Shown here piece after piece: positions 19,326 to 38,994 of a stretch of 64,000 nucleotides of DNA. Numbering within the stretch: position 1 is the first letter of the stretch; every line of letters starts with the position of its first letter. A model generated the notes under the pieces. That model saw nothing but the letters and a program-made list of their open reading frames with translations. It had not been told where the DNA came from and ran no database searches. Made by a program: the position numbers and the translations under genes. The DNA comes from Maribacter arenosus (lineage in GTDB: Bacteria; Bacteroidota; Bacteroidia; Flavobacteriales; Flavobacteriaceae), in assembly GCF_014610845.1 (NCBI RefSeq), contig NZ_JABTCG010000001.1:248001-312000 (forward strand). The letters run 5' to 3'.

Positions 19326-19384
19326 GTATTTGAATAATAAGCGGCAAAGGTAACCTATTAATTTGGATATTAGTGATAAGCGAA

Positions 19385-20947
19385 TTAATTGGGTATTAGT
19401 CCTTTAATCGCGGCCTCTGCGCAACGTTCCCCATCCATGGCTGCGGAAACAATGCCACCGGCATAGCCCCCACCTTCACCACAAGGAAACAAACCTTCTA
19501 TCCCTATATGTTCCAGGTTCTCCTTTCTTGGGATGGTAACAGGGGAGGAGGTTCTTGATTCAACACCAACTATGTTGGCTTCAGCCGTATAATACCCATG
19601 CATTTTCTTGCCGAATTCCGTAAATCCAGCTCTAAGTCGACTACCAATCAATTTGGGAAGTAATGAATGCAAGGGGGCGGATTTCAAACCTGGTTGATAA
19701 GAGGAAGGGTTCAGGTCCTGGGATAATTTTCCTTCTACGAAATCTGTTAGGCGTTGTGCCGGGGCGGTTTGACAGCGTCCTCCTGCGGTAAATGCCAAAC
19801 GTTCCAGGTTTTTTTGATATTCCAATCCTTTTAAATCACCGAACTTTTCATACTTGTGAATATCTTGGTCCACATTGATTTCTACAACAATACCAGAATT
19901 GGCAAAAAGATTATTGCGTTTAGAGGGTGACATTCCGTTGACTACCACCTCACCAGGAGCAGTAGCTGCCGGGACGATAAAGCCGCCAGGACACATACAG
20001 AAGGAATATACCCCTCTGTTGTAAACCTGCTGCACCAAACTATACGCAGCCGGAGGAAGCAATTCGTTTCTTTCCCTTTTGCAATGATATTGAATCGAAT
20101 CTATAATGTGTTGTGGATGTTCTACCCGAACCCCCATCGCAAAGGATTTTGCCTTTATGGCGATCTTCTTGTCCTGCAGTAAATGAAATATATCCCGTGC
20201 GGAATGCCCCGTCGCGAGGATTACGCGGTCAACAGGTATTTCTTGTCCATTTTGCAATAGCAAGGCCACCAGTTTATTGTTCTTGATCGTAAAATCGGTA
20301 ACACGACTTTCAAAATATATTTCACCCCCATGCGATAAAATCGTCTGACGTATGTTTTGAACGATTTTCGGGAGTTTGTTGGTACCAATATGCGGGTGTG
20401 CATCCACCAGAATCTGGTCTGTAGCCCCATGGTATACCAAATTTTCAAAAATACGGCGTACGTCACCTCTTTTTAAGCTTCTTGTATAAAGTTTGCCATC
20501 GGAATAAGTACCTGCTCCCCCTTCACCAAAGCAATAATTGGAATCTTCATTTACGATATGATCTTGATTAATGGCCTTTAAATCACGGCGACGATCCTGT
20601 ACTTTTTTCCCACGTTCGAACACCACGGGTTTAAATCCCAATTCCAAACATCGTAATGCTGCCCACATTCCCGCAGGACCAAAACCTATGATATGAATTT
20701 TCTTGGCTTTGGAAACATCTTTGTAGTCAAAAGTGTACTCGGTATTTTCTTTGGGTTGTTCCCGAATGTAAACCTCCATTTTATAATTAAAATAGATGGT
20801 CGGTTTCCGCGCATCGATTGACTTACGCAGCACTTTTATAGTAAGATCATTTTCAGGTTCCCCCAAATAGGTAGCTACTTTTTTAAGCAGGATGCCTTTT
20901 CGGGATTCTTCCTTCAAGGAAACCCGTAATTGAATTTGTCTGACCAT
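19385..20947 (-). CDS. FAD-dependent oxidoreductase (COG2509-like)
   Basis: A 520-residue flavoprotein with a small N-terminal domain (about 1-85, [18 protein letters not shown]) followed by a dinucleotide-binding site ([26 protein letters not shown]). Later signatures are [38 protein letters not shown] and the FAD-closing [20 protein letters not shown]. It matches the conserved group of uncharacterised FAD-dependent dehydrogenases found widely in bacteria, with no proven substrate. Length is normal for the group. Confidence 0.88.
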
Positions 20948-21088
20948 AGGGTAAAATTAGGGCAATTTCGAGAATAACTTAAATTATCCCTGAATTTCGA
21001 TGAAATTCCACGGTAGACGTCTAGAATTGTTTTTTTTCGGAATCCTTTATAAGGCAACAAATTCTATTACTTGGTCGACTGCCTTATT

Positions 21089-22129
21089 TTATTCCAACAC
21101 CTCATATGCAGTAAGGGTTTGCGCCTTGTTCTTCATCGTGATGTCGCCTATTTTTTTACATTTAAAGGCTTCTTTGACCATTTCATAACAGTTTTGGGAA
21201 ATCAAGATTTGATTGGGTTGGGCCGCGTCCTGTAGCCGGGCCGCCGTATTCACGGTATCACCGATCACGGTATAGTCCAAACGCCTTAAACTGGCAGATC
21301 CAATATTTCCGGAAATCATTTCCCCGCTTTTAATCCCAATCGAAACTTTCGGTTTATAGCCCGCTATATCCTTTGATTCTGGCATGGCGTTGATTTGTTG
21401 CCGAACGGCCAAGGCCGCATCTATGGCCCTATCGAGGTGATATTCCCCTCGAAAAACCGCCATGATGGCATCGCCGATAAACTTGTCTACATGGCCCTCT
21501 TGTGAGATAATCTCTTTCACCATCACATCAAAATACGTGTTGAGCATCTTCACCACTTCATCAGGGGGCGTGGTTTCGCTAATAGCTGTAAAGCCACAGA
21601 CGTCGATGAACATCACCGTCGCTTCCAAATTCTCATTGGCCATAATGGTCGACTCATATTCTTGGCCTCCCATAAAGTTGAGTACGTTTTCGTCTACATA
21701 CATCTTTAGGATGTTGTTCTCTTTGATGGCCTTAAGGGTCTCCTTGAGCTGTTGTGCATGTTTCAATGTCTTTTCAACTGTTATGGTCAGGTCTTCAAAG
21801 TTAATCGGTTTGGTGATAAAATCGAATGCACCACGGTTCATTGCGGTACGAATATTCTCCATATCACCATAGGCCGAAACAATGACCGATTTCAGCAACG
21901 GATTTAGTTCGCTGATTTTGGAGAGCAATGTGAGCCCATCCATTTCTGGCATATTGATATCACTAAGTACGATATCGGTATCAGTTTCGGTCAGGAGTTT
22001 TTCCAAGGCATCCTTTCCATTTATTGCAAAAACAAATTCGTACTCATTTTGCCGAATCTGTTTTCGGAATTTTTGCTTAATGAGTACCTCCAAATCGGTC
22101 TCATCATCCACTACAAGTATCTTAGCCAT
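21089..22129 (-). CDS. Response regulator with class III adenylate cyclase output
   Basis: A 346-residue fusion. Residues 1-120 are a receiver (VVDDE, phospho-acceptor Asp57 in [11 protein letters not shown], Ser85, Lys107). After a helix linker ([18 protein letters not shown]) comes a class III nucleotide cyclase domain. All catalytic positions are present: metal ligands Asp176 (FIDVCGFT) and Asp220, adenine-specifying Lys216 ([13 protein letters not shown]) and Asp285 ([16 protein letters not shown]), and transition-state Asn294 and Arg298. It should make cAMP when phosphorylated. It is the last gene of the kinase operon, and its ATG overlaps the preceding stop (TAATG). Confidence 0.93.
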
Positions 22130-22503
22130 TATTTAAGAGTTGTTAATTTGCTTTTCAATAGTGCAAAATCCAAAGGTTTGGTTAAAAAATCGTCGGCTCC
22201 CAGTCGTTTTGCCGTATTTCGGTTTTCCTCGTCACCGTATGCCGTAACCATCATGACCAATGGTGGCGGTTGTTCAAAGTCTTTTCTGATTTTTTCCAAT
22301 AAGTCAAGACCGCTCATGCCGGGCATATTGATATCCGATAAAATCAATACCGCTTCCTGCTCCATGGTCTTCATAATATCCAATGCTTCCTCTCCCGAAA
22401 ATGCAAAAACAAAATTCAGTACCCCGGTTCTGATTTCTTTTCGAAATCGCTGCTGGAAAAGCAATTGAACATCTTTTTCGTCGTCTACTACTAATATTTT
22501 CAT
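22129..22503 (-). CDS. Single-domain response regulator (receiver only)
   Basis: A 124-residue stand-alone receiver: VVDDEKD acidic pair, Asp57 in [11 protein letters not shown], Thr87 and Lys109 in FLTKPL. It has no output domain, so it probably acts as a phosphate shuttle, sink or protein-protein regulator. It resembles the receiver of the next gene (the cyclase), including the NxxF-x-FAF/I-xG-x-(E/D)AL segment, so they probably arose by duplication. It lies 22 bp after the kinase at 22526. Confidence 0.93.
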
Positions 22504-22525
22504 ACTATATGTGTTTTAATCCTTA

Positions 22526-23830
22526 CTATTTCTTAGTGATTTCTGTATTAGGTAAAATGATGGTGAATTCGGTACCCATTCCTTCATGGGTCTCCACTTT
22601 GAGTTCACCCCCGTGCGCCTTCACGATATCATAACTTAAACTCAACCCCAGGCCGGTGCCTTCCCCACTTGGTTTGGTGGTGAAGAAAGGCTGGAAGATC
22701 TTTTCTTTTATGGCTAGGGGAATTCCGTTGCCATTATCCTTAACGCTAATGGTAATGGTATCCTTTTTCTTTTTAGTGTATACCGACACGGTAGGCTCAT
22801 AACCTTCTTTTTGTTGCTCCTTTTTCTTTTTCACTACATAAAAGGCATTGGTAATTAAGTTTAGTATGACACGACCAATATCTTGCGCAACAATATTTAC
22901 ACTACCTAATGATTTATCAAAATCAGTTTCCAATTTGGCATTAAAGGATTTATCCTTCGCTCTAAGTCCATGGTAGGACAATCTTAGGTATTCATCTGCC
23001 AGTGCATTAATATTGGTTGCTTCCTTATCACTAGTATTATTCCGGCTGTGTTGTAACATCCCTTTCACAATCGCATCAGCCCTTCTGCCATGATGGTTGA
23101 TTTTTTTCTGATTTTCTTTTATATCATCGGAGATGGAAATGGCCTCTTCCGTATTTCCCGCTTTAAGTTCTTCCTGCATTTCTTCAATCAATTCGGTATT
23201 CACCTCGGAAAAGTTGTTGACAAAGTTCAAGGGATTCTGGATCTCGTGGGCGATACCGGCCGTTAACTCCCCAAGACTGGCCATTTTTTCAGATTGAATA
23301 AGCTGGGATTGAGTGGCTTTTAGGTTTTCAAGGGATTTTTTTAGCTTGGCAGTTTGTTCATCAACCAGTTTCTGTAGTCGCTCTTTTTCACATTGCCATT
23401 CATTTTGATGCCATGTATCGCCGTCAGTTTTTACACCAAGCGAACCGTGCCAATGGGTCACTTTCCATTGCTCATCATAATAAAAAACAGTGCTAATTCT
23501 AAGGGGTAACAAGGTTTCATTCCGATCGATTGAATAGCTTACGTTTATTTCCGCTATAATGACTGCCGCATCGCTCTTTTTCGAAATTTGTTTTTTTACG
23601 ATTTCTAAATCATACCTATAATTATCAAATAATCGTCTTTGTTGCCGCCCAATTTCAATTATGTTCTTAACCGCTTCCCTTCCAAAAATCTTTTCGTCTT
23701 GGGTAGTGCCATAACCCATAATATCATGTGAGAGGATACTATCCAATTCATCTAAGGATGAATCTTCCATAAACGATGCTACCCAATATTGATGGGTTTG
23801 TAGTAATTCTTTTTCTTTGGCTGTATCCAT
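22526..23830 (-). CDS. Soluble histidine kinase with N-terminal SnoaL-like domain
   Basis: Started at the ATG at 23828-23830, one base after the stop of the propeller kinase gene, giving 434 residues; an in-frame upstream codon would overlap that gene. Residues about 1-125 are an NTF2/SnoaL_3-like domain ([60 protein letters not shown]). A coiled coil follows ([15 protein letters not shown]), then HisKA with His195 ([15 protein letters not shown]), the N box ([13 protein letters not shown]), DNGNGIPL, and [16 protein letters not shown]. No membrane segment is seen, so it is cytosolic. It immediately precedes the receiver genes. Confidence 0.9.
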
Positions 23831-23831
23831 T

Positions 23832-26800
23832 TTAAATAGATTCAATTGGCAATGAAATCTTAAAAACTGTTCCCTCGTTTTCTTTGGTTTCCACCTTTAA
23901 TTCCCCCCCATGAACTTTCACAATATCATAGCTTAACGATAATCCCAAACCTGTACCTTTTCCTGATGGTTTTGTGGTAAAAAATGGCTGAAATATTTTG
24001 TTCAACACTTCCTTAGGTATCCCATTCCCATTATCTTGTACCGATACCAATACCATGTTCCCTTGCTTCTTGGTACTCACGGTTACCGTTGGCTCGTACC
24101 CCTTGGTATTTTGGTCTTTCTTCTCTTTTACCACATAAAATGCATTGGTAATCAGGTTTAAAATAACCCTTCCAATATCTTGGGGAACAATATTTATTTT
24201 ACCAATGGTGTCGTCAAAGTCGGTATTCAAAGTGGCATTGAATGATTTATCCTTGGCCCGTAATCCATGATAGGCAAGGCGGAGATATTCATCAGCTAGG
24301 GTATTTATATCCGTAGGCTCTTTTTGTCCGCTACTGCTTCTGCTATGCTGTAGCATGCCTTTGACAATGCCATCGGCCCGTTTTCCGTGAAAGATTATCT
24401 TATCCTCATTTTCGGCAACATCTTTGGCAAGGGCTTTGACTTCATCAAAATTTCCTTTTTTGATTTCTTCATCCATCTCTTGTAGCAGTTCCTTATTTAC
24501 TTCAGAGAAATTATTGACAAAGTTCAAAGGGTTCTGTATTTCATGGGCTATACCGGCAGTCAATTCGCCTAGGGAAGCCATTTTTTCGGATTGAACCAAT
24601 TGCGATTGAGTATTTTTTAATTCGGAATAGGCCTTTTCTATTTCCTTTGCCTGCGCCAATTCCTTATCACGTGATCGCTCACGTTCTTTTTGTTTTATTC
24701 TATTTCGCATGAAACGATCTACGATCAAAAATCCTATGATCAAGACGGAAGCGTATAATACATAGGCCCATATAGAGCGCCACCATGGCGGGGAAATGGT
24801 GATGGACAAGGTTTTACCTTCCTCGTTCCAAATGCCATAGGCATTGGATGCCCTTATCGCAATTTCATAGTTGCCAGGATCAAGGTTGGTGTAGGAAGCA
24901 AAGTTTCTATTATCATAGATCCAATCTTCATCATAACCAATCAACTTGTGTGCATATTGGTTCTTATTAGGATTGGCAAAATGCAATGCCGCAAATTCAA
25001 AACTCAAGTTGTTTTGCTCGTGTGATAGGCTAATATTTTCGGTGTTCAGCAAACTATTTGTTAAAGGATTATCCTCTCCCATATCGAGTACCGACTTATT
25101 GGAAATCAGCAAATCCGAAATAATCAACGCAGGCGGAACATTATTAGCCGTAACGCTGCTGAATGTTGTGAGTCCATGATCCCCACCAAAGTAAAATCGG
25201 CCATCGGTTGCACGGGTCGCCGCAAGGGACAAAAAAATATCCCCGCCCAGGCCATCGGAAGCATTGTAATTGATAAAGGTTACTTTACCCAAATTTTCAT
25301 TGTTCACCATTTGGGAGAGTCCGTTTTGGGTAGCGATCCACATTTCGCCATTATCGCCTTCGAGAATCGCTTCGGTAAGGTTTGTGGGCAATCCATCTAC
25401 TTCCGAGTAGCGGGTAAATTTTTCGGTTCCGGGATCTAGTTTGTTGATTCCTTCGGTTGTTGCTAACCAGATCATACCGCGACTATCCTCAAAAATGTCA
25501 AAAACGGTGTTACTACTTAGCGAATTTTTGTTATCAGGTTCGTAAATGAAATACTTTACCGTCTTGGCGACAGGATCTATTCTATTGATTCCTTGGCCAT
25601 TGGCACTCACCCAAATATACGTATCGGTAATTTCAATATCCGCTATATTATTTCCACTGATGACCAGTTCCTGTTGGTTATTCGAAAACTGGCTTTCAAA
25701 TGACATTGATTGATTACCATCGCTGGGTTTGATCAAGACGATACCGTAGAGCGAGGTATGTTCAGGAGGGTCGGAATTCCATTTATCATAGGCGTGGCTA
25801 TCGTCCGTTTTATAGCGTAACGCGTAAGAACCTGGTTGTAAGGTTATGGGGGCAATTATAATCCTGTTTTTATAGGCTCCACCGGCATAAAAAGAATCCT
25901 CGAAATCCCCGAAATCCCAAATAGTGTCCTTTGCGGCGTTTTCAATCCAACCCCAATCTGCCATACTGGCTTCATCACCTTCCCCTACTGACATAACCCA
26001 ATAGGTGCCGGCAGTCTCTATCTCTATTGGCAATGATCGATTCTCAAAATCCTTTACCTGATCAATAATCCCGATTTTTTGATCGGTAAGGGAAAGCTGT
26101 TCGATTTCCTCTATCAGATCTTGGGGATATACTTTTGTGGCTTTACTTACGACTCGTTGAAATTTACCTGTTTTGGGATCTAGGATATTAAGACCATTGT
26201 TGGTGCCCACCCATAACTTACCTTCTTGGTCTGGTTTTATAGCGCGTACTTGATTATTCGATATAGTATTGGATGTATAGGGTTCATATTTGTACCTTTT
26301 TAATTCCCGATAGTTTTGATCCAATTTTATCAGTCCGTCGCCCCATGTTCCCAACCACAAAGAGCCGTCTTCATCCTCCGCAATGCTTCTTACCGATCCG
26401 CCGAACATATCATCCACCACTTTGTAAGACACTTTTTCAAAAGTTTGTTTTTTTGGGTCGAAAATATTGAGCCCTCCACCACGTGTTCCTACATAAACAA
26501 AGCCGGGCTTCTTCTTTGATGCCGAAATTCCATAGACATTATTGAGACTGATGCTAAAGGGGTCGTCGTCGTCATGGGCCAAGTGCATGAAAGGTTTATT
26601 AATCGGATCGTATTTTAAAAGTCCTGCCTCCGCACTGCCAAACCAAAATATCCCACTCCTATCGATCATGAAATCGGTTATGGTAATATTCCAGCCGTGG
26701 CCTCGCATTTGTACTTTTCCGGCAATGGTGATTTGCTTATAGCTATCGGAAGTTCCTTCGAACTTCAGCATTCCACGAAAATTGTTGCCTATCCAAATGT

Positions 26801-27671
26801 TGCCTTGATGATCGGATAGGATCCTGTTCCAATTGTTCCATGGGCTTTGGGCATCTTCGTCATATTCCTTGATGGTTTTTAAACCACCCGATTTGAGATC
26901 ATATTTGTAAACACCTGTACGTGTTGTTATCCAAAGGGTATCGTTTGCATCGGTAAATAATGACGTAATGGAATTTTCGGGATTCACAAAGTCAAAATCT
27001 CCCCATTGTTCAGAGGTTACCGGCCGAAAAGCGGTTTCGTTTTTGGCCATATGCATTAAGCCGTACACGGTTGATCCAAACCAAATTCCACCTTCAGCGT
27101 CCTCTGTTATCGCAATTGACATACCATAATGGACTGGCTCTTCAACATTCGGAATCACATAAGGTGCGAATTTCCATTGATCTGTAATAGGATCATAGAC
27201 CAATAACTCCATGAATTGTGAAGTTGCCCAAAGACGTTGTTCAGAATCTTTAAAAATATTGAATACACGGCCACCATTAGGGGGGATATTGAAAATTTCA
27301 CCGAACGGATAATTGATAAACCCATTTTTTTTTCGGTCGTATTTAGAAATACCGAAGTCACTAGCTACCCAAATATTGTGATCGGCATCTTCCTCAAGCC
27401 CCCAAGCGTTATTGTTCATCAAACTAGTTGCCTCCCCTGGAATAGTCTTAAAGGTCTCGAAGCGATATCCATCATACTTTTGAACCCCATTGGTCGTTGC
27501 GATCCAAATAAGGCCATAACTGTCTTGCATTACATCCTGTACATTTGGTGATGCCAAACCTTCAGATATCGAGAGGTAGGATGGATCGATCTGTTGGGTG
27601 CCACTTTGGGAAAACGCCATTAGGGTACTTAAACCTATCGAAGCAATGAGAAGTATTGGTTTAATTCGCAT
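23832..27671 (-). CDS. Membrane histidine kinase with Reg_prop/Y_Y_Y extracellular sensor
   Basis: A 1279-residue protein with signal peptide (ASIGLSTLMAFSQ). Residues about 30-860 are two-component regulator propeller repeats (DSYGLIWIATTNGVQKYDG, EDGSLWLGTWGDGLIKLD, DSRGMIWLATTEGINKLDP). A Y_Y_Y domain follows (HKLIGYDEDWIYDNRNFASY), then a transmembrane helix at about 963-985 and a kinase core with His1043, [20 protein letters not shown] and GTGLGLSLS. Unlike classic hybrid two-component systems it has no C-terminal receiver or AraC domain. A non-propeller segment at about 512-675 is inserted between blades. It is transcribed with its neighbours: 57 bp after the TPR kinase gene. Confidence 0.92.
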   Translation of the reverse strand: MRIKPILLIASIGLSTLMAFSQSGTQQIDPSYLSISEGLASPNVQDVMQDSYGLIWIATTNGVQKYDGYRFETFKTIPGEATSLMNNNAWGLEEDADHNIWVASDFGISKYDRKKNGFINYPFGEIFNIPPNGGRVFNIFKDSEQRLWATSQFMELLVYDPITDQWKFAPYVIPNVEEPVHYGMSIAITEDAEGGIWFGSTVYGLMHMAKNETAFRPVTSEQWGDFDFVNPENSITSLFTDANDTLWITTRTGVYKYDLKSGGLKTIKEYDEDAQSPWNNWNRILSDHQGNIWIGNNFRGMLKFEGTSDSYKQITIAGKVQMRGHGWNITITDFMIDRSGIFWFGSAEAGLLKYDPINKPFMHLAHDDDDPFSISLNNVYGISASKKKPGFVYVGTRGGGLNIFDPKKQTFEKVSYKVVDDMFGGSVRSIAEDEDGSLWLGTWGDGLIKLDQNYRELKRYKYEPYTSNTISNNQVRAIKPDQEGKLWVGTNNGLNILDPKTGKFQRVVSKATKVYPQDLIEEIEQLSLTDQKIGIIDQVKDFENRSLPIEIETAGTYWVMSVGEGDEASMADWGWIENAAKDTIWDFGDFEDSFYAGGAYKNRIIIAPITLQPGSYALRYKTDDSHAYDKWNSDPPEHTSLYGIVLIKPSDGNQSMSFESQFSNNQQELVISGNNIADIEITDTYIWVSANGQGINRIDPVAKTVKYFIYEPDNKNSLSSNTVFDIFEDSRGMIWLATTEGINKLDPGTEKFTRYSEVDGLPTNLTEAILEGDNGEMWIATQNGLSQMVNNENLGKVTFINYNASDGLGGDIFLSLAATRATDGRFYFGGDHGLTTFSSVTANNVPPALIISDLLISNKSVLDMGEDNPLTNSLLNTENISLSHEQNNLSFEFAALHFANPNKNQYAHKLIGYDEDWIYDNRNFASYTNLDPGNYEIAIRASNAYGIWNEEGKTLSITISPPWWRSIWAYVLYASVLIIGFLIVDRFMRNRIKQKERERSRDKELAQAKEIEKAYSELKNTQSQLVQSEKMASLGELTAGIAHEIQNPLNFVNNFSEVNKELLQEMDEEIKKGNFDEVKALAKDVAENEDKIIFHGKRADGIVKGMLQHSRSSSGQKEPTDINTLADEYLRLAYHGLRAKDKSFNATLNTDFDDTIGKINIVPQDIGRVILNLITNAFYVVKEKKDQNTKGYEPTVTVSTKKQGNMVLVSVQDNGNGIPKEVLNKIFQPFFTTKPSGKGTGLGLSLSYDIVKVHGGELKVETKENEGTVFKISLPIESI

Positions 27672-27728
27672 GTAGTCAAATTTGTTTGGTCAATAGTAAA
27701 TATACTGTTTAAAGCAAAATAAGCAATA

Positions 27729-30233
27729 TTAGGCCATTGGTAATTCAATTATAAATATTGTTCCTTCGCCTTCCTTGGTCTCTACCTTCAGTTCCCCGCC
27801 ATGCCCTTTAGTGATGATGTCATAACTCATGCTCAGGCCCAGGCCGGTGCCTTGTCCGGTTGGTTTGGTCGTGAAAAAGGGTTGAAAGATCTTGTCGAGA
27901 ACATTTTGTGGGATCCCGTTCCCGTTGTCCTTAACAGAGATTTCTACTTTGCCATCTTTCTTTTTCGAACGTATTGAAACGGTAGGCTCATAGCTTTCGA
28001 TCCCTGACTTTTTCTTTTCATCGACCACATAAAATGCATTTGTTATTAAATTGAGGATGACCCTGCCGATATCCTGCGGAACCACCTTGATCTTCCCAAT
28101 GGTGTCGTCAAAATCGGTGTTCATAGTGGCGTTGAAACCCTTGTCCTTCGCCCGTAAACCATGATAGGCCAAGCGAAGATATTCATCGGCCAGGGCATTG
28201 ATGTCCGTGGGTTCTTTTACCCCACTGCTGCTACGGCTGTGCTGCAACATGCCCTTTACAATGGCATCGGCCCGTTTGCCGTGGTGGAGAATCTTCTCAA
28301 GGTTTTGTTTGACATCTTTAGCGATGGCTTTGGTTTCCTTATAATCCCCTTTTTCGATTTCCTCGTTCATCTCATCGATCAGCTCGTTGCTCACTTCCGA
28401 GAAATTATTCACGAAGTTCAACGGATTTTGGATCTCATGGGCAATGCCGGCCGTCAGCTCCCCTAGACTGGCCATTTTCTCGGATTGGATAAGTTGGGAT
28501 TGGGTGGCTTCCAATTGTTTCAATGTTGTCTGTATTTCTTCTTTTTGTTCACTTAGGACTTTATTTGCTTTTTGTTTGTTTTTGTTATTTCTAAACAGGA
28601 TAAAACTTAGCAATAAGGCTGATAAAAGGGCTCCAGCAATGCTGAAGATCCAAATTTTTTGAACTTTGTTTGCCTGATCTGCCATAAGGCTTTCTTGTTC
28701 CGCTGCATCAATCTTTCTTTGGCTTTTTTCCAAGATGTCTCTAATTTCAGCATCTGCCAGACGATTTGCTGCATCTAATTTGTCATTTTCAGCTCTAATT
28801 TCCTCATATCTTTTGAGGTATTGAAACGCTTTATCTTTTTGCCCAAGCTTTTCATAAATTTCAGATAACATCAAACTTAGTTCGCTTTCTACTTTTGTTC
28901 GAGGTAAGTTTGTATCCTTTTCCATTTGTAAAGCAAGCAGCGCATGTTCTAATGCCTTTTTGTAATCTCCCATTTCCTGATAACATTCAGCCGTGTACAT
29001 AGCCATAAAAGGATTCCCATTTTTTTTACCCAAATCAATATAACTTGCCAATGCTTTTTGAAAATAGGGGATAGCGGCTGAAAATTGTTGTTTGTCTTTT
29101 AGTATTTGACCCTCCAGGCTATTTTGGCGCGCCAAATAATAGTTACGGGTTTGTTCGTTGGGCTCCTCGAGGGACAGAACCATATATTCCCTGGCTTTGT
29201 CATATTTTTTTATATAGTAATTTGAGAAAGAAGCTTGGTTATAGACATTGAATATATTAGTCGAATCCTTTTGTTGCATTAAGAGCGGGATTAATTTTTC
29301 ATAGATAGCAGCGGCCTTATCATACATTACAAGATTTCTATATGAAGTTCCAATACTTTCATAGGCATCGGCCAGCATGGTAACATCACCATTTTGCTCA
29401 AATATTGCAATACTTTTTAAATAGTATTCAATAGCAAGTGCATATCTTCCAGCACCGCTATATCCTTGAGCCATAGATGCTATAATCAATCCATAGGTGT
29501 TTTCATTTTCATTTTGGGTAATGAATTCAATCATTTCTGCTTCCAGTTTTTTGATATCATCTTCCCTTCCCAATTTTTTTAAATTATACATTTTACCAGC
29601 AGTAGCTGCAAATATCGGATACACCTGACCCAATTCCTTCCAGATCTTAATGGCCGTTTCTTGTGTTTGCAACGATGCCTCAAAATCGCCCAGCATAAAT
29701 TGAAAATAGTTAAGGTTATATAGGATATTTGCTTGAATCTCTTTGTCATCAAGCTTTTCAAAGTATTGATATGTGTCAGTGGCAACATTCCTTAGATTTT
29801 CCCAATCTTGCCCGTTACTATAAACTATATTTGGAAGCGTCTCATAGTATTTTCCTAAATCTTGGTCTGGGTCTTTTGAAAGCCATTCGGCTTGCTTCCT
29901 ATAATAATTTGCCATCGAACCAGAACCATGAAATGATGATAAGGTCTGGTAATACATGATTTTTCCACCTTTGAATTTAATTTTTTCAGAAAGTAACCGC
30001 GCTTCCCGAGTTGCTATTAAACCCTTTTTAAATAATTCCAAATCATAAAAACAAGCCCTAGCGTATTGATTGAGGAGGCGTACTTTTTCTTCGTCATTTT
30101 TAGGATGCGAATCTACAAGATGTAGTATACTGTCAATTTTAGATAGATTGACGAGCTGTATATCCTGGGCACTGATTGTAACATTTGTAAAACATATCAG
30201 CATCAAATTGAATATCATTTGACTTGTTTTCAT
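27729..30233 (-). CDS. TPR-containing membrane histidine kinase
   Basis: An 834-residue protein with a signal peptide (NLMLICFTNVTISAQ). Residues about 30-500 form TPR-like helical repeats (LADAYESIGTSYRNLVMYDK, KGLIAT..., GDYKKALEHALLAL), then one transmembrane helix at about 523-545 (IFSIAGALLSALLLSFILF), a coiled coil and the kinase core: His599 ([15 protein letters not shown]), [22 protein letters not shown] and GTGLGLSMS. Its kinase region shares a 530-bp stretch (27758-28287) with no difference seen with the giant kinase gene just upstream. It lies 45 bp after that gene. Confidence 0.92.
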   Translation of the reverse strand: MKTSQMIFNLMLICFTNVTISAQDIQLVNLSKIDSILHLVDSHPKNDEEKVRLLNQYARACFYDLELFKKGLIATREARLLSEKIKFKGGKIMYYQTLSSFHGSGSMANYYRKQAEWLSKDPDQDLGKYYETLPNIVYSNGQDWENLRNVATDTYQYFEKLDDKEIQANILYNLNYFQFMLGDFEASLQTQETAIKIWKELGQVYPIFAATAGKMYNLKKLGREDDIKKLEAEMIEFITQNENENTYGLIIASMAQGYSGAGRYALAIEYYLKSIAIFEQNGDVTMLADAYESIGTSYRNLVMYDKAAAIYEKLIPLLMQQKDSTNIFNVYNQASFSNYYIKKYDKAREYMVLSLEEPNEQTRNYYLARQNSLEGQILKDKQQFSAAIPYFQKALASYIDLGKKNGNPFMAMYTAECYQEMGDYKKALEHALLALQMEKDTNLPRTKVESELSLMLSEIYEKLGQKDKAFQYLKRYEEIRAENDKLDAANRLADAEIRDILEKSQRKIDAAEQESLMADQANKVQKIWIFSIAGALLSALLLSFILFRNNKNKQKANKVLSEQKEEIQTTLKQLEATQSQLIQSEKMASLGELTAGIAHEIQNPLNFVNNFSEVSNELIDEMNEEIEKGDYKETKAIAKDVKQNLEKILHHGKRADAIVKGMLQHSRSSSGVKEPTDINALADEYLRLAYHGLRAKDKGFNATMNTDFDDTIGKIKVVPQDIGRVILNLITNAFYVVDEKKKSGIESYEPTVSIRSKKKDGKVEISVKDNGNGIPQNVLDKIFQPFFTTKPTGQGTGLGLSMSYDIITKGHGGELKVETKEGEGTIFIIELPMA
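27758..28287. repeat. 530-bp direct repeat, copy 1 (kinase core)
   Basis: Reading both copies base by base, I see no difference between this block and 30311-30840 (constant offset of 2553). It covers most of the ATPase domain and the end of the phospho-acceptor domain. A second identical block follows in each gene (28357-28451 and 30910-31004), with a divergent stretch between. This points to recent duplication or gene conversion. Confidence 0.9.
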
Positions 30234-30278
30234 ATAGTTTTAATTGTTGATAAAATATTGGTTTCATAAATTTTAGAA

Positions 30279-33200
30279 TTATCCTTGATTTGGTAGACTA
30301 AATGCAAATGTTGTTCCTTCGCCTTCCTTGGTCTCTACCTTCAGTTCCCCGCCATGCCCTTTAGTGATGATGTCATAACTCATGCTCAGGCCCAGGCCGG
30401 TGCCTTGTCCGGTTGGTTTGGTCGTGAAAAAGGGTTGAAAGATCTTGTCGAGAACATTTTGTGGGATCCCGTTCCCGTTGTCCTTAACAGAGATTTCTAC
30501 TTTGCCATCTTTCTTTTTCGAACGTATTGAAACGGTAGGCTCATAGCTTTCGATCCCTGACTTTTTCTTTTCATCGACCACATAAAATGCATTTGTTATT
30601 AAATTGAGGATGACCCTGCCGATATCCTGCGGAACCACCTTGATCTTCCCAATGGTGTCGTCAAAATCGGTGTTCATAGTGGCGTTGAAACCCTTGTCCT
30701 TCGCCCGTAAACCATGATAGGCCAAGCGAAGATATTCATCGGCCAGGGCATTGATGTCCGTGGGTTCTTTTACCCCACTGCTGCTACGGCTGTGCTGCAA
30801 CATGCCCTTTACAATGGCATCGGCCCGTTTGCCGTGGTGGTTTATTTTTTCAAGGTTTTGTTTTATGTCATCGGCAATCGCTTTTGCCTCATCCAGATCC
30901 CCTTTGGCTATTTCCTCGTTCATCTCATCGATCAGCTCGTTGCTCACTTCCGAGAAATTATTCACGAAGTTCAACGGATTTTGGATCTCATGGGCAATGC
31001 CGGCGGTAAGTTCTCCAAGGGAAGCCATTTTCTCGGATTGGACCAACTGATTCTGAGTGGCCTTTAGTTCGCTCAAGGTGATTTCGACGCTTTGTTTCGC
31101 TTTCTCCAATTTGGTAAAGTCTTCATATCGGGCATAGGCAATGGCAAAGGCATCTGCCAAAGATTGTACCAATTCGATTTGTTCAACATTCAAGGGATTC
31201 TCGCTGCCAACGTAAAGCATGCCTTGGGTGAAAGGAATGAAATGGAGATTTAAGGAATCCGGTGGATTTACTGCTCCTTGATAGGTGGCTTTATCAGAGA
31301 TTTGCCCCCGTTCCATCAAGGATTGTGTCCAACTTAAAAATTCTTCCCGGTTCCAATGTTCTTTAAAAATTTTTCCTTTCCTCCAATGGGCCACTGTATT
31401 TTCAGTAAATGGGTCGGCATTGAATTGAAGATGCAACACCCCTAGGGAATGCCCATTTGGAGCTGATAAATAGACCTCTACATTTTGGGTAGGTTCATCA
31501 ATGATAAAAACGCCGCAACGGATAAAAGGCACCCCCATGGTAGTCAATTCATTCCATAACAGCGGGGTAATGCGATCTAGATCGGCTGTTGATCGCATAC
31601 TGGCAATTTGCCCGCGCACCCGGTCTAAAGATGCTTGTTTGGTTGCTTCCCTGGCTTGCGCCTCGGCTTTTTGAAGGTCGAGGAATCGTGTATAGGTCTG
31701 TTCGAAGACTTTGGCAAAACGTTTGAATATTTCATGGGCATCCGGTACGGGTTCATAAGTAATGAACATTAAATATCCATGAGGGAAATAAACGATATGG
31801 AATATTTGAAAAGTGGGCAATGATAAGCCCGCCTTGATAAGCTCTTCCAAAATTTTACCCACTTTAGGCAGGGTACGCATAAAGTCGTAATGCTTTACCA
31901 GCGCATCGCCACCCAATTCCTCTACATAAAAAGTTTCCCCGCTTTGCAGAGGGTCATAAAAATTATAGCCTTCACCAATGGTCGGTAAAATAAATGAATT
32001 TTGAATTTCCCCTTCACTACTCATATTGCAGGAAGCCGTTTTTTTGTCCTCATTTTCCCAGATGCAATACCCTGCACTCCATGCGGGGATCCCTAATTCC
32101 TGTACCTGTAAAAACAAGTTGTTAGCAGCTTCCGGCAATTCATGACTTTGCTGCATGGCCATGGTACGGCTACGTACTTTTTCTAAAGCGTTTTCTATCT
32201 GTGCTTCCCTTGCTTGTGCTTCCGCCTTTTGTAGATCGAGGAATCGAGTGTATGATTGTTCAAAAACATGTGCGAACCTTTTAAAAATTGCGTTTTCCTC
32301 ATCCCTAAATGGGATAGCGCGGTAATTACCAACATACAGGTCAATATTCTTCAACAAGAAACTTGAACGTGCAAAGCCAGGAGCATTCAGAATATAATCT
32401 TTTATTTTTTCAGGGAAATGTTTTAGATCTGAATATTTGATCAGATGCTCATGCCACTCCTTGTTTACTTTAGCGGAAAAAACATCTGCTAAAAAAGTAA
32501 TTCCTTCTTTTTGGGCTTTATAAATTCCTTTTAGTATTGGGCTGTCAAATGTTGGCACTTCCATAAGTATTGGCATGGGTTGCCCCTTAGAAGTTATCCA
32601 AAAGGTGAAGTCACCTTCTTGGTTATTCTTTGCGAAACTAACGGTATCAAAATTTAAATTCAACTGCTGCAACTGCTCGGAGACAACACCGATCACTTCC
32701 AGCATTTCTTTACTTTTATGCATAGCCATCGTACGGCTTCTTACTTTTTCCAAGGCAGCTTCTATCTGTGCCTCCCTTGCCTGTGCTTCTGCTTTTTGAA
32801 GGTCCATAAAACGTATATAGGCCTGTTCAAAAACTTTGGCGAAACGTTTCATGATGTCGGCATCGCTTTCAGAAGGTATTGCACCAGTAAGCGAAGGAAT
32901 TAAAATTGCAGAATTTTTAGACCAAGCGGCAGAAAGTCTATGTTTATCAGCTTGAAGCACATATTGTTTATAGTCTTCCGGCATGTGTTTATAATCACTT
33001 TGTTCAAAGGCTTGTTCAAAAAAATCGTTTTTCGCTTCTACAGGAAATTCTTTAGAGAAATAGGTGTCTCCTCCAATTTTTGAATCCCAAGCTTCATTAA
33101 AAATAGGGTTATCAAAATAGGGCACTAAATATCTTCCCGAAGTTGAAAAGTCGTCAACGGCAATCCAATGCACAACATCTTTATTGTCTGGGAAGTAGGT

Positions 33201-36200
33201 GCAAAGAATCACACCTCCTGCGTCATATATAACTCCTAATTCTTTTAATTTTTCAGCAACAACAGCAACTACTTCCTGAAGTTCATCAGGTTTGTGCATT
33301 GCCAAAGACCGGGACCGCACTTTTTCTAAAGCAGCTTCAATCTGTGCTTCTCTCGTTTGCGCCTCAGCTTTTTGCAAATCTTCAAAACGTTTATAGGCTA
33401 AATCAAATGCACCTCCCATTTTGGTTAAAATGGTTTCCATTTCATCTGAAGGTGGATTTAATAAATCGATAACTAATTTCCCGTTATTTAGTTTTTTTAC
33501 TGTATGATGCAGACGTTCTAATTTTGTGGTTTCAGTATACTCTTTAACTTCATCGGCAATTTTATCTTGATTGTTTTCCCGCAACCATTCGATTATTCTC
33601 TTAAGGTCTTTTCCTTCTTGTACTTCTATAAAGTAATTTTCAGGATTTTCCCAAACCCGTTTCACATATAAATTTGGATCTCTTTTTTTGAGCTTAAACG
33701 TAATATCGAAGGGAATTTGATAGCCATTGTTATCTTTTTCAAGCGTAGAGAGATCCCACATTCTTACTTTATCATCGCCTTCATTTAAGAAAATAGTCGC
33801 AGCAACGACATCTGGAATGTCTAATGCCATAACTTCTTCTTTAAGTTTGGCAACAACTTCCATAATTTCTTCAGATTTGTGCATGGCTAAAGCTTTAGCT
33901 CGCACGCGTTCAACAGCGAGATTTATTTGCGCTTCCCTGGCTTGCGCCTCAGCCTTTTCTAGATCGAGGAAGCGTGCATAAGTCTGTTCAAACACCCTTG
34001 TAAACCGAGCTAGCAAAGCCTCTTCTTCTTCTTCAAGGTGAGAACCCGCAACTAAGTGCAAGTATCCATGTGAAAAATTAAAGCAATAAAATACAGTTGG
34101 ATCAGGAAACTGATTACGCACCATTTCTTCAGCTTCTTTAGAATTAAAGGTGGTAATGGCATATTCAAGATGTTTTCGTCGCTCTTTACCTGCAACGGTT
34201 TGGTGGAATACCGTCTGTTGTTTTTTCCATGCCTCGTAACGTTCGTTAAAATAGACATCTCCAGTTAAAGGAAGATAAAACAACCCTAAAGAGTCTCCGC
34301 CCGGACTTGTGACCCAAGTGGATTGTAATTGGGTTTCCTCATTTATTTCTACATACCCGCAAGTTGCAAAGTTGGTAACACCAAGTGCTATTAATTCTTT
34401 GTATAAAAGGACTACGACATCTTGAAGCTCTATACCTTTTTGCATAGCCATGGTTCGGCTTCTTACCTTTTCTAAAGCTGCCTCGATTTGCGCTTCCCTT
34501 GTTTGTGCTTCGGCTTTTTGGAGGTCCATAAAACGGATATAGGCTTGTTCAAATACCTTGGCAAAGCGTTTCAGCAGCTCATTTTCTTGTACAGTGTAGG
34601 GTTCATTGGTATATCGTGCTATTTGAATCCCGGAATTCTTGGCGAAAGCAAGGGAGGTAGAAAAAGCGGAGGAGTTGACCATCTTATTTTTCAGGTTCTT
34701 TGGAAAATCGCCATGTTTAAGTAACTGGTGTATGTATTCCTCTTTGGTCTTACCTGTATAGGTCCTTGCAAACAGTTCGGCCCGTTCTTTGATCGCCTTA
34801 TTATAATCGCGTTGTACTTTGGTGGTTTTATTATAAGGAATCCGGAGGGCCTTGCCCATAGGTACCCCACCTATCCAGACATCATAATCTTGCTTTTCTT
34901 CTATGATACCGCTCATCCCAACGGCATCCATCACTAACCCTAATTCCTTCAGTTGGTCATAAACGGCATTGGCCACCTGCTGCATTTCGTCCGAGGAGTG
35001 CATGGCTAAAGATTGGGAACGTACTTTTTCAAGAGCCGTTTCAATCTGTGCTTCTCTTGCCTGCGCTTCTGCTTTTTGCAGATCGAGGAAACGAGTGTAG
35101 GTGCGCTGAAATTCCTTGGAAAAACGATTTAATATTTTTTTTTCATCGTCATCAAGCTGCCGTTTTATCATAATACCAAAGCAACCATAGTCCATATAGG
35201 CATCTATATAGTACAATCCATCTGGAAATAGTTCTGGTTTAAATTTATCAACGCCATCTAGCAGTTCAGACCATGTGGAAAAGTAGTCTTCAACTTCATC
35301 TGGCTGGACAGTGTTTACATGCACAGTTTCTTCACTTTCCCAGGCTAAATAACAAGCTTTAATGGAGGGTTCACTCTTGTCTAAAGGGAAAGTAACCGCT
35401 TTATTCTTGTAAATGGTTTTACTCTTCTTGCGTTCACTCCAAGTTGCCCAAAACTTATGATTATTTTCAGTTTCGTCAGGTAGCCATAAATAGGAAAATT
35501 CAGAATCTATACCCAGTAATTGTAGTTGTTCATGAAAAACTTGCGCCGTTGTATTTAACTCATTGGAGTGTTGCATAAGCATACTTTGGGTTCGCGTGCG
35601 TTCTAAGGCTGCTTCAATTTGTGCTTCCCTTGCTTGTGCTTCTGCTTTTTGAAGGTCTAAAAATCGCGTATAGGTTTGCTCGAAAACCTTTGCGAAACGT
35701 TTGAAAATATCATAGGCATCCGGCACATGCTCTTTAGTAATGAACAATAAATAGCCATATTTAAAATATACGACATGGTCTATTTGATAGGTTGGAAAAC
35801 CGTCATTTGTTTCCTTTAGTTGTTTAAGAACATCACCAATAACAGGTAATGTGCTCATATATTCGTAATGATCTATACAGGCTTTACCTGAAAATTCCTG
35901 AATGAAGATGGATTCTCCCTTTTGCCCTTTTTCGTAATATTCCTTAAAAATACCTTTTCTTGGAACTGAATAAGTTGGAAGAATGCCCGCTTCATTCCCA
36001 AACCATTCAGTGGATTCTTTGTCACCATAAATATTAAAAGCACAACCCCAAGTTTTAACACCTAAAGCTCTTACTTGTTCATCTAACAAGTAAGAAGCTT
36101 CTTGTAATTCATCGCTATGTTGCATTGCCATGGTTCGTGCGCGGACTCTTTCCAATGCCAATTCAATTTCTGATTCTCTGGCTTGGGCTTCTGCTTTTTG

Positions 36201-37805
36201 TAAATCTAAAAATCTGGTATACGTTTGTTCGAAAACTTTAGCGAATCGTATAAAAATATCGTGTGCATTTGGTACAGGTTCATGTGTAATAAACATGAGA
36301 TACCCTTCCTTAAAATAGGCACAATGAATAATTTGAAAAGTTGGAAACGAAAGTCCAGCTTTAGCTAATGCTTTCACCTCAGGAATAGAAACCAAATACT
36401 TGTAATGGTCTTCTAGTACCTTACCTTCCTGCTCTAAAACAAATAAAGCGTCTCCTCTTTTTTCTGCTTCGCGAAAAAGTAGATACACGTCTTCACTAGA
36501 ATTTGTTCTAAATGGTGGCTGAAGTCTATCTTTACCTGCCATCCAAGCCGTAGCAAATTTCTTGTCTTTATCCCAAATATTAAAACCACAAGCAAAGGAA
36601 TTTATGCCTAGTTCCTCAACTTGTTGAAATAGAAGCAAAGCGGTATCTCTTAATTCATCACTTCGCTGCATACCCATAGTTCGGCTTCGTACTTTTTCTA
36701 ATGCCAATTCTATTTGAACCTCTCGTGCTTGTTTTTCTGCTTTTTGTAAGTCCAAGAAACGTCTATGTGCTAAATCAAACGCACTCGCAAATTGTATTAA
36801 AATATCTATATCCTCAGCAGGTGGTTTTTTTACAACGCCAGGTAAACTATAACCAATTTCTCCGTGTGTAGTACGTGCCATGACAAATGTTAATCCACCA
36901 ATATGTTTTATATCCTCATGGGTTGGTGCTTGAGGATCTATATTCTGAAAATCGCCCAAGTTGACCATTTTATCTACATAATCAATAGCTTCTTTTGCGT
37001 TCATGGCGTACACCACAGTTGCATTATTGCTTTTTTCCCATTTAGCTAATAATGGAATGTCACCATGCATATGTCTTGGCAATTCCATTACAAAACCAAT
37101 TTTACTTCCATCACCAGAAGTCATGGCTTTTTCATAGGTTTCTGGCAGCCACATCATGTGCCAGAAATAATGCGCTTCGTGACCTAATTTGGTAAATTCA
37201 TTGCGCATCGTCACTACAATATCGAGTAGGTCAGAAGATTGTTGCATGGCAACGGCTTGAGCTCGAATACGTTCTAAAGCTCCTTCGATTTCTAGTTCTC
37301 GGTTTTTCGCCTCTAGCTCAACCGTTCGTCGTTTTATAGCTTCTCTTAATTCTTGGTTTTCCTCATTTACTTTATCGAAACCTATGGATTCCCCTTCATC
37401 TGTTTTGCTATCGGCTATAGAGAAATGCTGATAGATAAACTTCCAGCCTTCTTTTTTTTCTATTAAGACTGACGAAAATCTAAAACGGCCATAATAGGTC
37501 CAATCGGTGCCGTTTATAAACCAAGCATCAAAAATATGAGTTATAAAAATAAGGTCGTCAAAAGCTTCAATTGTAGTCGTTTCATTTCGAAGGTCTGTTT
37601 TACCAGAGAATTGCTCCGCCGTTTCCTTAAAAAATTGAGTGGTATCTTTTCGGTTTAGAAATTCTTCATTATCGGTAGAACCGATAAAGTGGTATTCATC
37701 AGCAAAATAGCTATCATAAGTAATAACATCACCATTTAAGTAACTATGCATCCAAGTGTCATAGATCTTTAATATTTCTTCTTTCTTTTTGTTGGTGAGT
37801 TTCAT
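30279..37805 (-). CDS. Giant soluble histidine kinase with eleven tandem sensory modules
   Basis: A 2508-residue protein with no signal peptide or membrane helix. Residues about 1-130 are an NTF2/SnoaL-like domain (ILKIYDTWMHSYLNGDVITY, FRFSSVLIEKKEGWKFIYQH). A coiled coil leads to eleven modules of about 182-195 residues starting near 175, 367, 549, 732, 923, 1109, 1296, 1491, 1683, 1872 and 2058. Each opens with a helix like ALEKVRSRTMAMQKSDEL and closes with RFAKVFEQTYTRFLDLQKAE plus AQAREAQIE; the body looks GAF-like (inference). The kinase core follows: His2272, [31 protein letters not shown]. It is the first gene of the six-gene operon and is far longer than usual kinases. Confidence 0.93.
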   Translation of the reverse strand: MKLTNKKKEEILKIYDTWMHSYLNGDVITYDSYFADEYHFIGSTDNEEFLNRKDTTQFFKETAEQFSGKTDLRNETTTIEAFDDLIFITHIFDAWFINGTDWTYYGRFRFSSVLIEKKEGWKFIYQHFSIADSKTDEGESIGFDKVNEENQELREAIKRRTVELEAKNRELEIEGALERIRAQAVAMQQSSDLLDIVVTMRNEFTKLGHEAHYFWHMMWLPETYEKAMTSGDGSKIGFVMELPRHMHGDIPLLAKWEKSNNATVVYAMNAKEAIDYVDKMVNLGDFQNIDPQAPTHEDIKHIGGLTFVMARTTHGEIGYSLPGVVKKPPAEDIDILIQFASAFDLAHRRFLDLQKAEKQAREVQIELALEKVRSRTMGMQRSDELRDTALLLFQQVEELGINSFACGFNIWDKDKKFATAWMAGKDRLQPPFRTNSSEDVYLLFREAEKRGDALFVLEQEGKVLEDHYKYLVSIPEVKALAKAGLSFPTFQIIHCAYFKEGYLMFITHEPVPNAHDIFIRFAKVFEQTYTRFLDLQKAEAQARESEIELALERVRARTMAMQHSDELQEASYLLDEQVRALGVKTWGCAFNIYGDKESTEWFGNEAGILPTYSVPRKGIFKEYYEKGQKGESIFIQEFSGKACIDHYEYMSTLPVIGDVLKQLKETNDGFPTYQIDHVVYFKYGYLLFITKEHVPDAYDIFKRFAKVFEQTYTRFLDLQKAEAQAREAQIEAALERTRTQSMLMQHSNELNTTAQVFHEQLQLLGIDSEFSYLWLPDETENNHKFWATWSERKKSKTIYKNKAVTFPLDKSEPSIKACYLAWESEETVHVNTVQPDEVEDYFSTWSELLDGVDKFKPELFPDGLYYIDAYMDYGCFGIMIKRQLDDDEKKILNRFSKEFQRTYTRFLDLQKAEAQAREAQIETALEKVRSQSLAMHSSDEMQQVANAVYDQLKELGLVMDAVGMSGIIEEKQDYDVWIGGVPMGKALRIPYNKTTKVQRDYNKAIKERAELFARTYTGKTKEEYIHQLLKHGDFPKNLKNKMVNSSAFSTSLAFAKNSGIQIARYTNEPYTVQENELLKRFAKVFEQAYIRFMDLQKAEAQTREAQIEAALEKVRSRTMAMQKGIELQDVVVLLYKELIALGVTNFATCGYVEINEETQLQSTWVTSPGGDSLGLFYLPLTGDVYFNERYEAWKKQQTVFHQTVAGKERRKHLEYAITTFNSKEAEEMVRNQFPDPTVFYCFNFSHGYLHLVAGSHLEEEEEALLARFTRVFEQTYARFLDLEKAEAQAREAQINLAVERVRAKALAMHKSEEIMEVVAKLKEEVMALDIPDVVAATIFLNEGDDKVRMWDLSTLEKDNNGYQIPFDITFKLKKRDPNLYVKRVWENPENYFIEVQEGKDLKRIIEWLRENNQDKIADEVKEYTETTKLERLHHTVKKLNNGKLVIDLLNPPSDEMETILTKMGGAFDLAYKRFEDLQKAEAQTREAQIEAALEKVRSRSLAMHKPDELQEVVAVVAEKLKELGVIYDAGGVILCTYFPDNKDVVHWIAVDDFSTSGRYLVPYFDNPIFNEAWDSKIGGDTYFSKEFPVEAKNDFFEQAFEQSDYKHMPEDYKQYVLQADKHRLSAAWSKNSAILIPSLTGAIPSESDADIMKRFAKVFEQAYIRFMDLQKAEAQAREAQIEAALEKVRSRTMAMHKSKEMLEVIGVVSEQLQQLNLNFDTVSFAKNNQEGDFTFWITSKGQPMPILMEVPTFDSPILKGIYKAQKEGITFLADVFSAKVNKEWHEHLIKYSDLKHFPEKIKDYILNAPGFARSSFLLKNIDLYVGNYRAIPFRDEENAIFKRFAHVFEQSYTRFLDLQKAEAQAREAQIENALEKVRSRTMAMQQSHELPEAANNLFLQVQELGIPAWSAGYCIWENEDKKTASCNMSSEGEIQNSFILPTIGEGYNFYDPLQSGETFYVEELGGDALVKHYDFMRTLPKVGKILEELIKAGLSLPTFQIFHIVYFPHGYLMFITYEPVPDAHEIFKRFAKVFEQTYTRFLDLQKAEAQAREATKQASLDRVRGQIASMRSTADLDRITPLLWNELTTMGVPFIRCGVFIIDEPTQNVEVYLSAPNGHSLGVLHLQFNADPFTENTVAHWRKGKIFKEHWNREEFLSWTQSLMERGQISDKATYQGAVNPPDSLNLHFIPFTQGMLYVGSENPLNVEQIELVQSLADAFAIAYARYEDFTKLEKAKQSVEITLSELKATQNQLVQSEKMASLGELTAGIAHEIQNPLNFVNNFSEVSNELIDEMNEEIAKGDLDEAKAIADDIKQNLEKINHHGKRADAIVKGMLQHSRSSSGVKEPTDINALADEYLRLAYHGLRAKDKGFNATMNTDFDDTIGKIKVVPQDIGRVILNLITNAFYVVDEKKKSGIESYEPTVSIRSKKKDGKVEISVKDNGNGIPQNVLDKIFQPFFTTKPTGQGTGLGLSMSYDIITKGHGGELKVETKEGEGTTFAFSLPNQG
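30311..30840. repeat. 530-bp direct repeat, copy 2 (kinase core)
   Basis: The partner of 27758-28287, inside the giant kinase gene. The two kinase ends diverge only after the block, in their final codons and in the helix region around 28288-28356 / 30841-30909. Confidence 0.9.
31071..37283 (-). repeat. Eleven-unit tandem protein-coding repeat with homogenised linkers
   Basis: Unit edges on the DNA are about 37283, 36707, 36161, 35612, 35039, 34481, 33920, 33335, 32759, 32192, 31634 and 31071. The linker of about 45 residues is nearly constant, while bodies diverge into recognisable subtypes: units 2, 3 and 10 (with FPTFQI...YFKxGYLxFIT), units 5, 8 and 9 (with FPxxxKxx(M/I) and a late RFAKVFEQ), units 6 and 11 (SLG(L/V)xxLxL), and units 1 and 7 (AFDLAxxRFxDLQKAE). 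Unit 4 stands apart. Confidence 0.85.
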
Positions 37806-38021
37806 GGATTGATAGTTGTTGGTAAAGGGATAATAAAACTTGAACCTTCCCTTTCTGGCGTTTCTATGTTTGATTTAAAACAAAATGCAGTATCAAAACT
37901 AGTAGGTGTTGATAAACTTTTTCTCGAGTTATGCCCAGTTGATTTGGAGGAATAATAGGACTGGGGTATTTTATCATGTGCTTTCTGTGGGTCTGTGATT
38001 CTGAAGTTTTCGAAAGAAATA

Positions 38022-38051
38022 AAATCCCCCATTTCACAAATTGGGGGATTT
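38022..38051. terminator. Terminator-like hairpin
   Basis: A 10-bp stem (AAATCCCCCA / TGGGGGATTT) with a 10-base loop, followed on the plus strand by TTTGTTTTT. No complete gene ends here, so it may be a relic or protect the kinase operon from read-through. Confidence 0.5.
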
Positions 38052-38500: not shown

Positions 38501-38568
38501 TTTCTTTTTTCCTATCATGGGGGTAAAGCATCAAATTAGCCCCAGTAAATAATCTAACACCAAAAAAG

Positions 38569-38991: not shown

Positions 38992-38994
38992 ATC

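Follow-up and report, generated by a model that had tools for sequence, protein, structure and literature searches.

A multi-kinase phospho-signalling array with a predicted class III adenylate cyclase output in Maribacter arenosus and other Bacteroidota

Phospho-receivers fused to class III adenylate cyclases are known from cyanobacteria, where CyaC is a receiver-bearing class III cyclase. A like fusion is predicted for a six-gene locus of Maribacter arenosus (Flavobacteriaceae), at positions 21089–37805 on the minus strand of a 64,000-nucleotide stretch of its genome (contig NZ_JABTCG010000001.1, positions 248,001–312,000; hereafter the window, the whole stretch that was analysed). The locus encodes four histidine kinases, a lone receiver and a receiver-cyclase, and its domains and residues mark it as a two-component phospho-signalling array whose output is a class III cyclase. 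Control of cyclic AMP (cAMP) by many kinase inputs is well supported but unproven. We consider it probable that the module as a whole runs from several kinases through two receivers to cAMP, with a PycTM protein as at least part of the reader in Flavobacteriaceae.

In contrast to the CyaC type, the kinases of this locus are separate proteins, often several per locus and with one common core, and a lone receiver adjoins the cyclase in nearly all loci. Several sensor kinases also converge on common outputs in multikinase networks such as GacS/RetS of Pseudomonas; the kinases here differ in having a locus-bound core, in clustering with the output, in varying in number and in a presumed output that is a second messenger. 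A third likeness is to the receiver-SpoIIE phosphatases of Bacteroidota, since the receiver of the one tested, encoded beside the cyclase in locus L139, is 66% identical to the cyclase receiver; their output is a SpoIIE phosphatase domain, whereas here it is a cyclase. A likeness to Pycsar systems (PycC with PycTM) is the class III-fold cyclase gene that adjoins a PycTM gene in 12 of 16 relatives from the same family. The locus differs from them in its adenine-type active site, its weak PycC score, its presumed phosphorelay control and the displacement of PycTM in the M. arenosus genome. A literature search, which covered titles and abstract openings, found no such locus described.

The cyclase gene (21089–22129) encodes 346 residues arranged as a receiver, a helical linker and a class III cyclase, with Pfam matches to Response_reg and, in the cyclase domain, to PF00211 (Guanylate_cyc; E 7.4e-27). 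The receiver carries D57, S85 and K107, and the cyclase part D176, D220, K216, D285, N294 and R298. We take D176 and D220 to be the metal residues, K216 and D285 to specify adenine, and N294 and R298 to be the transition-state pair. The Lys216 and Asp285 named in the original prediction are exactly where it placed them. All 37 receiver-cyclases compared keep the catalytic residues, and all 36 lone receivers keep the phosphoacceptor Asp. Among solved structures the cyclase part is closest to two adenylate cyclases, CyaB (3r5g) and one that is photoactivated (5x4t), and the alignment to 5x4t runs through the linker, from residue 127. On these residues and relatives the protein fits a class III adenylate cyclase, and cAMP would be its product.

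A defence role of the Pycsar kind, in which the cyclase would make a cyclic pyrimidine and the kinases would sense infection, has some points in its favour: PADLOC models of PycC match the cyclase (2.5e-26), PycTM models match the effector (2.4e-26), and the cassette is patchy, being missing from a genome of the same genus. PADLOC was used without a cut-off, and membership of the PycC family was judged by comparing scores. The PycC-like neighbour of PycTM in genome G047 scores 7.2e-98 with the same library, so the match in the window likely reflects the shared cyclase fold. The window cyclase thus falls outside the PycC family by score, and its K216/D285 pair, invariant in all 37 proteins, specifies adenine rather than a pyrimidine. 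In addition, the receiver-cyclase keeps 60–90% identity over much of the phylum. We regard the defence reading as very unlikely for this locus. The G047 protein, which has no Pfam match and adjoins a PycTM gene (L160), is likely, from its sequence, part of a genuine Pycsar system in the same bacterial family.

The conservation of the locus was followed in three samples. The first comprised 149 Flavobacteriaceae genomes, M. arenosus included, of which 16 others encode a full-length receiver-cyclase (70–90% identity; hereafter the family relatives) and one, G005, has a truncated remnant. The cassette of G005 (L082) has decayed to a PycTM gene, the truncated start of a propeller and a fragment from the C-terminal part of the cyclase. 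In the second sample, 395 genomes from the phylum, a near-full-length protein at 60% identity or more was found in 26 genomes (27 copies, M. arenosus counted), and 20 further loci were taken from it. Genome G266 has two copies (on its contigs C95 and C92), each 65% identical to that of the window. The third was a scan of named genomes that confirmed at least 516 relatives, of which the best 80 were kept. Their titles, as far as we can judge, name Bacteroidota taxa, including Eudoraea, Maribacter, Aequorivita, Gillisia, Winogradskyella, Chitinophagaceae and Cyclobacteriaceae, and one is labelled Ignavibacteriae.

Gene order was counted in the 66 named loci with more than 2.5 kb of upstream DNA. 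The lone receiver lies at most 109 nt before the cyclase in 65 of them (the exception is L189), and at least one kinase with the same core lies upstream of the cyclase in 64 (L236 and L244 have none). Kinase number varies: 17, 21, 12, 9 and 5 loci have one, two, three, four and five kinase open reading frames (ORFs), respectively, within spans of at most about 10 kb per locus and with 22 of the 156 kinase ORFs running off an end. Among the 20 further phylum loci, 17 have core kinases (those of L151 are of a second core type), and L138, L139 and L150 have none. Sensors across loci include giants with GAF-like repeats, propellers, TPRs, 7TM-type regions, SnoaL domains and classical GAF repeats, and small kinases beside FIST genes occur among the array kinases of relatives, several of these classes having been assigned by eye. 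Because kinase number and type vary between loci, the four-kinase set of the window is one version of a plug-in array. The largest array seen (L250, and L079 of G069) spreads seven core matches (one is partial) across some 32 kb and includes a 2550-aa kinase. An HD-domain gene is found somewhere in 23 of the 80 named loci. In L144, L146 and L147 a protein of about 485 aa that joins an HD domain to a YitT membrane domain (Pfam was run on L144) is encoded next to or near the receiver-cyclase and is a possible cyclic-nucleotide phosphodiesterase.

The original prediction read the locus as a many-input network that sets cAMP. The conserved gene order, the locus-only core and the invariant catalytic residues speak for that reading. 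It needs amending in that the number and type of kinases are not fixed and in that the lone receiver is integral: as conserved as the cyclase, it must, on these gene-order counts, be part of the circuit.

The kinase core appears to belong to the locus. In M. arenosus it is present in all four array kinases, and the next kinase match in the genome is 34% identical. A search at E≤1e-30 covered 15 cassette genomes, namely G301, G289 and 13 family relatives (all but the fragmented G037, G066 and G119). It gave 40 core matches, all on the contig of the cyclase and at most 34 kb from it; those beyond about 11 kb are from G069 only. At the same cut-off, no core match was found in G032, the cassette-less genome of the same genus. 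Since the core is found at the locus only, the simplest reading is that the kinases form a dedicated, insulated network, as judged from these matches.

Sensor turnover around similar cores is suggested by the kinases themselves. The cores of kinases 1 and 2 are 94% identical in amino acids and 93% in nucleotides and share an identical run of 530 nt. The longest run elsewhere is 99 nt, in the next of 53 same-genome pairs, and 38 nt was the longest among 500 sampled pairs from different genomes. In a tree of 68 cores, 26 of the 56 cores from multi-kinase loci have their nearest core in the same genome (mean 1.6 and maximum 8 in 2000 label shuffles), and 19 of the 26 same-genome nearest pairs have different sensor classes. 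By BLAST, 24 of these 56 are nearest to a same-genome core; for them the sensor's best match lies in another genome in 19 cases and in the same genome in 4, and one has none. Sensor classes were labelled partly by hand, from length and domain hits, and the label shuffles ignore genome relatedness. The 530-nt run could be explained by gene conversion or by an exchange of sensors inside the locus, and these comparisons suggest that sensors turn over around cores that tend to remain similar in any one genome. The near-identity of the kinase 1 and 2 cores might instead stem from an assembly artefact or from a single tandem duplication, and not from ongoing homogenisation; the genome is a 24-contig draft in which that run far exceeds those of the other 52 same-genome pairs. 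However, the two core copies sit within a single contig, each next to a different sensor, and same-genome core clustering with unlike sensors recurs, for example in G042, G289, G301 and G391. We consider this explanation unlikely, although for the 530-nt run itself a draft-assembly artefact is conceivable.

As the original prediction remarked, no cAMP receptor is seen in the window, where none of the ten matches of the genome to PF00027 (the cNMP fold) falls. A candidate reader was found in relatives. Of the 16 family relatives, 12 have a PycTM-type gene of about 190 aa just behind that of the cyclase (in G075 an HD gene intervenes), and PF18967 was confirmed by Pfam in two of these short proteins. 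In the family sample, short PycTM proteins (E≤1e-10) occur in 33 of the 149 genomes, namely in all 17 that encode the receiver-cyclase and in 16 of the other 132 (Fisher 1.2e-13, a value that ignores genome relatedness). For at least 28 of the 35 short PycTM genes, a class III cyclase, a remnant of one or a PycC is no more than about 3 kb away: 12 of the genes are beside a receiver-cyclase, one beside the remnant in G005, at least 14 near another class III cyclase and one beside the PycC-like gene of G047. PycTM is thus a frequent partner of class III cyclases in the family and a candidate reader here, not a universal part. M. arenosus has two PycTM proteins, one of 394 aa (HD-PycTM) and one of 194 aa (G000:C1:550132-550713). 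The latter is encoded 280 kb from the array, beside two TPR-type class III cyclases; in this region (L085, 6585–12717) small neighbours of 293 and 163 aa accompany the two cyclases, and the PycTM gene is divergent. A PycTM remnant after the array cyclase was sought and rejected (best E 0.34 over 20960–21088, and 0.066, on the opposite strand, over a slightly longer stretch).

Several observations weigh against the full sequence of steps proposed here. At the phosphotransfer step, the consensus sequences of the two receivers agree at only 58 of 120 positions, and in the alpha-1 docking helix 8 of 16 positions are identical, no excess over the average. Docking of both receivers on the same kinases is therefore not evident from the sequences, and since the docking helices show no greater likeness than the remaining positions, the kinases may prefer one receiver. 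At the array, sensor class, too, carries information on the nearest core (29 of 68, against a mean of 11 and a maximum of 25 in the shuffles), and by BLAST 32 of the 56 cores from multi-kinase loci have their nearest core in another genome. Homogenisation is thus not universal, and the same-genome and sensor-class signals together suggest that inheritance and exchange both act. At the reader, PycTM lies outside the window, and 7 of the 35 short PycTM genes have no cyclase seen nearby, although those of G099 and G137 and both genes of G106 may have one that this count missed. A PycTM gene is found no more than 300 nt behind the cyclase in 20 of the 80 named loci (the sequence of some stops soon beyond the cyclase) and follows the cyclase in 1 of the 20 further phylum loci, and so PycTM cannot be the receptor everywhere. 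Known PycTM proteins are reported to disrupt membranes and to be activated by cyclic pyrimidines, not by cAMP (PMC11224242). Finally, the genomes counted are related to each other, and the association counts are not independent events.

The receiver comparison bears on a further explanation, in which the lone receiver would be the sole partner of the kinases, the cyclase receiver would answer another kinase or a small phosphodonor, and proximity would reflect co-transcription only. About half of the receiver positions, and of the alpha-1 positions, being common to the two receivers would suit it, as would the occurrence of close relatives of the cyclase receiver (53–68% identity) in other proteins of about 380–440 aa, of which the one tested, in L139, is the receiver-SpoIIE. 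Yet the receivers are neighbours in 65 of 66 loci, and in none of the 16 cassette genomes examined was a kinase of the array class found away from the locus at the stated cut-offs. This explanation seems to us improbable. The lone receiver matches the cyclase receiver at 51% identity (E 1.9e-26) and is its best receiver from the same genome among the matches listed. Upstream of the cyclase in L139 (G277) a receiver-SpoIIE, a receiver-kinase hybrid and a receiver-cyclase stand in a row with zero array kinases, and their receivers are 54–69% identical to the window cyclase receiver.

The array might also set a cAMP level that is read by a CRP/FNR-type transcription factor encoded elsewhere in the genome, with PycTM serving TPR-type cyclases only. 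The original prediction had expected a genome search for a CRP-like protein to support the output, and that search gave the ten PF00027 proteins. Nine of them exceed the Pfam cut-off, and all ten fail to match one uniform pattern for the canonical cAMP phosphate-binding cassette, a pattern that the cassette of Escherichia coli CRP satisfies. A CRP-type receptor was set aside on this account. The nearest miss, L027, keeps the start and end of the cassette (GE...LSA) with Leu in place of Arg, L026 and L030 are weaker near misses, and non-canonical binding of cAMP by one of the ten is conceivable. The absence of an adjacent PycTM in 60 named and 19 phylum loci of the counts above would fit such a reader, and so would the four family relatives in which PycTM is not beside the receiver-cyclase, three of them (G037, G040 and G025) having it beside TPR-type cyclases. 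Against it stand the missing cassette pattern and the presence of PycTM in all 17 cassette genomes of the family sample. We hold a CRP/FNR reader to be rather unlikely.

As for the genes of the locus in the window, the six minus-strand ORFs of the original prediction are all co-directional and intact, with the spacing it gave: gaps of 45, 57, 1 (with an ATG at 23830 for kinase 4) and 22 nt, then a 1-nt overlap. Its four kinases with similar cores and different sensors were likewise recovered, and the cores are 71–94% identical to each other in protein. Kinase 1 (30279–37805; 2508 aa) has a SnoaL_3 domain (residues 11–132), eleven GAF-like repeats (165–2225) and a HisKA/HATPase_c core (2251–2508) with His2272. 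Kinase 2 (27729–30233; 834 aa) combines a TPR sensor with HisKA and HATPase_c, and kinase 3 (23832–27671; 1279 aa) a Reg_prop propeller with Y_Y_Y and an HATPase_c core; the HisKA score of kinase 3 is 22.1 bits, below the cut-off of 26.9. Kinase 4 (22526–23845; 439 aa when read from a TTG) has SnoaL_3, HisKA and HATPase_c, and its start is likely the ATG at 23830, the sixth codon of the TTG ORF. All four kinases keep intact H, N, G1 and G2 boxes. The lone receiver (22129–22503; 124 aa) is a Response_reg protein with D57, T87 and K109 intact. The locus thus has what a two-component system requires, namely HisKA/HATPase_c kinases with H, N and G boxes and receivers with a phosphoacceptor Asp.

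The repeats of kinase 1 (31131–37313), of about 180–196 aa each and with a conserved joining helix AQAREAQIEAALEKVRSRTMAM, have no significant Pfam family; GAF_2 was matched in one of the eleven at E 0.21. A profile search of the PDB with the repeats gave nothing useful, and the fold search alone was informative. One repeat, modelled with AlphaFold2 from the eleven copies in the window, reached a pLDDT of 88.9, and a fold search with this model gave four PDB matches at E≤0.001 (best E 1.2e-4, with modest TM of 0.45–0.55), all of them GAF-containing: three PDE2A entries and one dual-sensor kinase. By this modelled GAF fold the repeats are best described as a GAF-like sensor array.

The surroundings of the array were compared with G032, which aligns with the window as collinear segments between 10536 and 20959 and between 39046 and 50441. 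The stretch 20960–39045, which includes a DUF2141 gene (38569–38991), has no counterpart there and is replaced by about 180 nt, and the flanking matches next to the missing array cover 18064–20959 and 39046–39587. G032 also lacks a stretch near 13.0–16.1 kb, so the flanks are not identical; like the array, a TonB-type outer-membrane gene region at 13158–15791 has no counterpart in it. On the plus strand, divergent from the array, 38569–40965 encodes the DUF2141 protein, a 209-aa protein and a kinase with His_kinase and 2TM domains. A strong hairpin at 38005–38065 (AAAUCCCCCAUUU ... AAAUGGGGGAUUU; z -2.6), about 200 nt upstream of kinase 1, may be terminator-like or regulatory. An ORF tail at 37802–38164 looked kinase-like by eye, and a decayed fifth kinase upstream of kinase 1 was rejected when tblastn of all domain probes over 37806–38600 gave a best E of 0.54 and zero core matches. 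Over the window, promoter-like (54 found, 47.5 expected) and terminator-like matches (16 and 17.0) are at chance, and a Bacteroidota-type promoter pattern is not enriched (7 and 4.5).

Taken as a route from many kinases to cAMP, the locus would work as follows. Histidine kinases with different sensors and one transmitter core would autophosphorylate and pass phosphate to the two co-encoded receivers. The lone receiver could be a phosphate sink, an adaptor or a separate output, while phosphorylation of the cyclase receiver would act through the helical linker on the class III adenylate cyclase and set cAMP, in a direction of control that we infer. With a common core, sensors could be added, lost or swapped and the output left unchanged; a self-contained, expandable signal-integration unit is the best explanation of the module. 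In Flavobacteriaceae the short PycTM membrane protein would read cAMP, at least partly, a step that we offer as a proposal from gene neighbourhoods. Tentatively, and as a possibility less probable than not, a swappable sensor array, held to one partner pair through the homogenisation of its kinase cores, may drive the cyclase, with cAMP opening or reshaping a PycTM-type membrane protein.

For Bacteroidota, the module is a widely conserved and easily recognised locus with intact chemistry for cAMP signalling, together with a candidate receptor, and the array is a natural experiment in the number of sensors that can be wired to one output. If PycTM binds cAMP, a family of phage-defence effectors would be linked to ordinary physiology. 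In that case the Pycsar effectors would form a physiological output gated by cAMP, or Pycsar would be derived from such a circuit, and the family would not be only an anti-phage suicide device.

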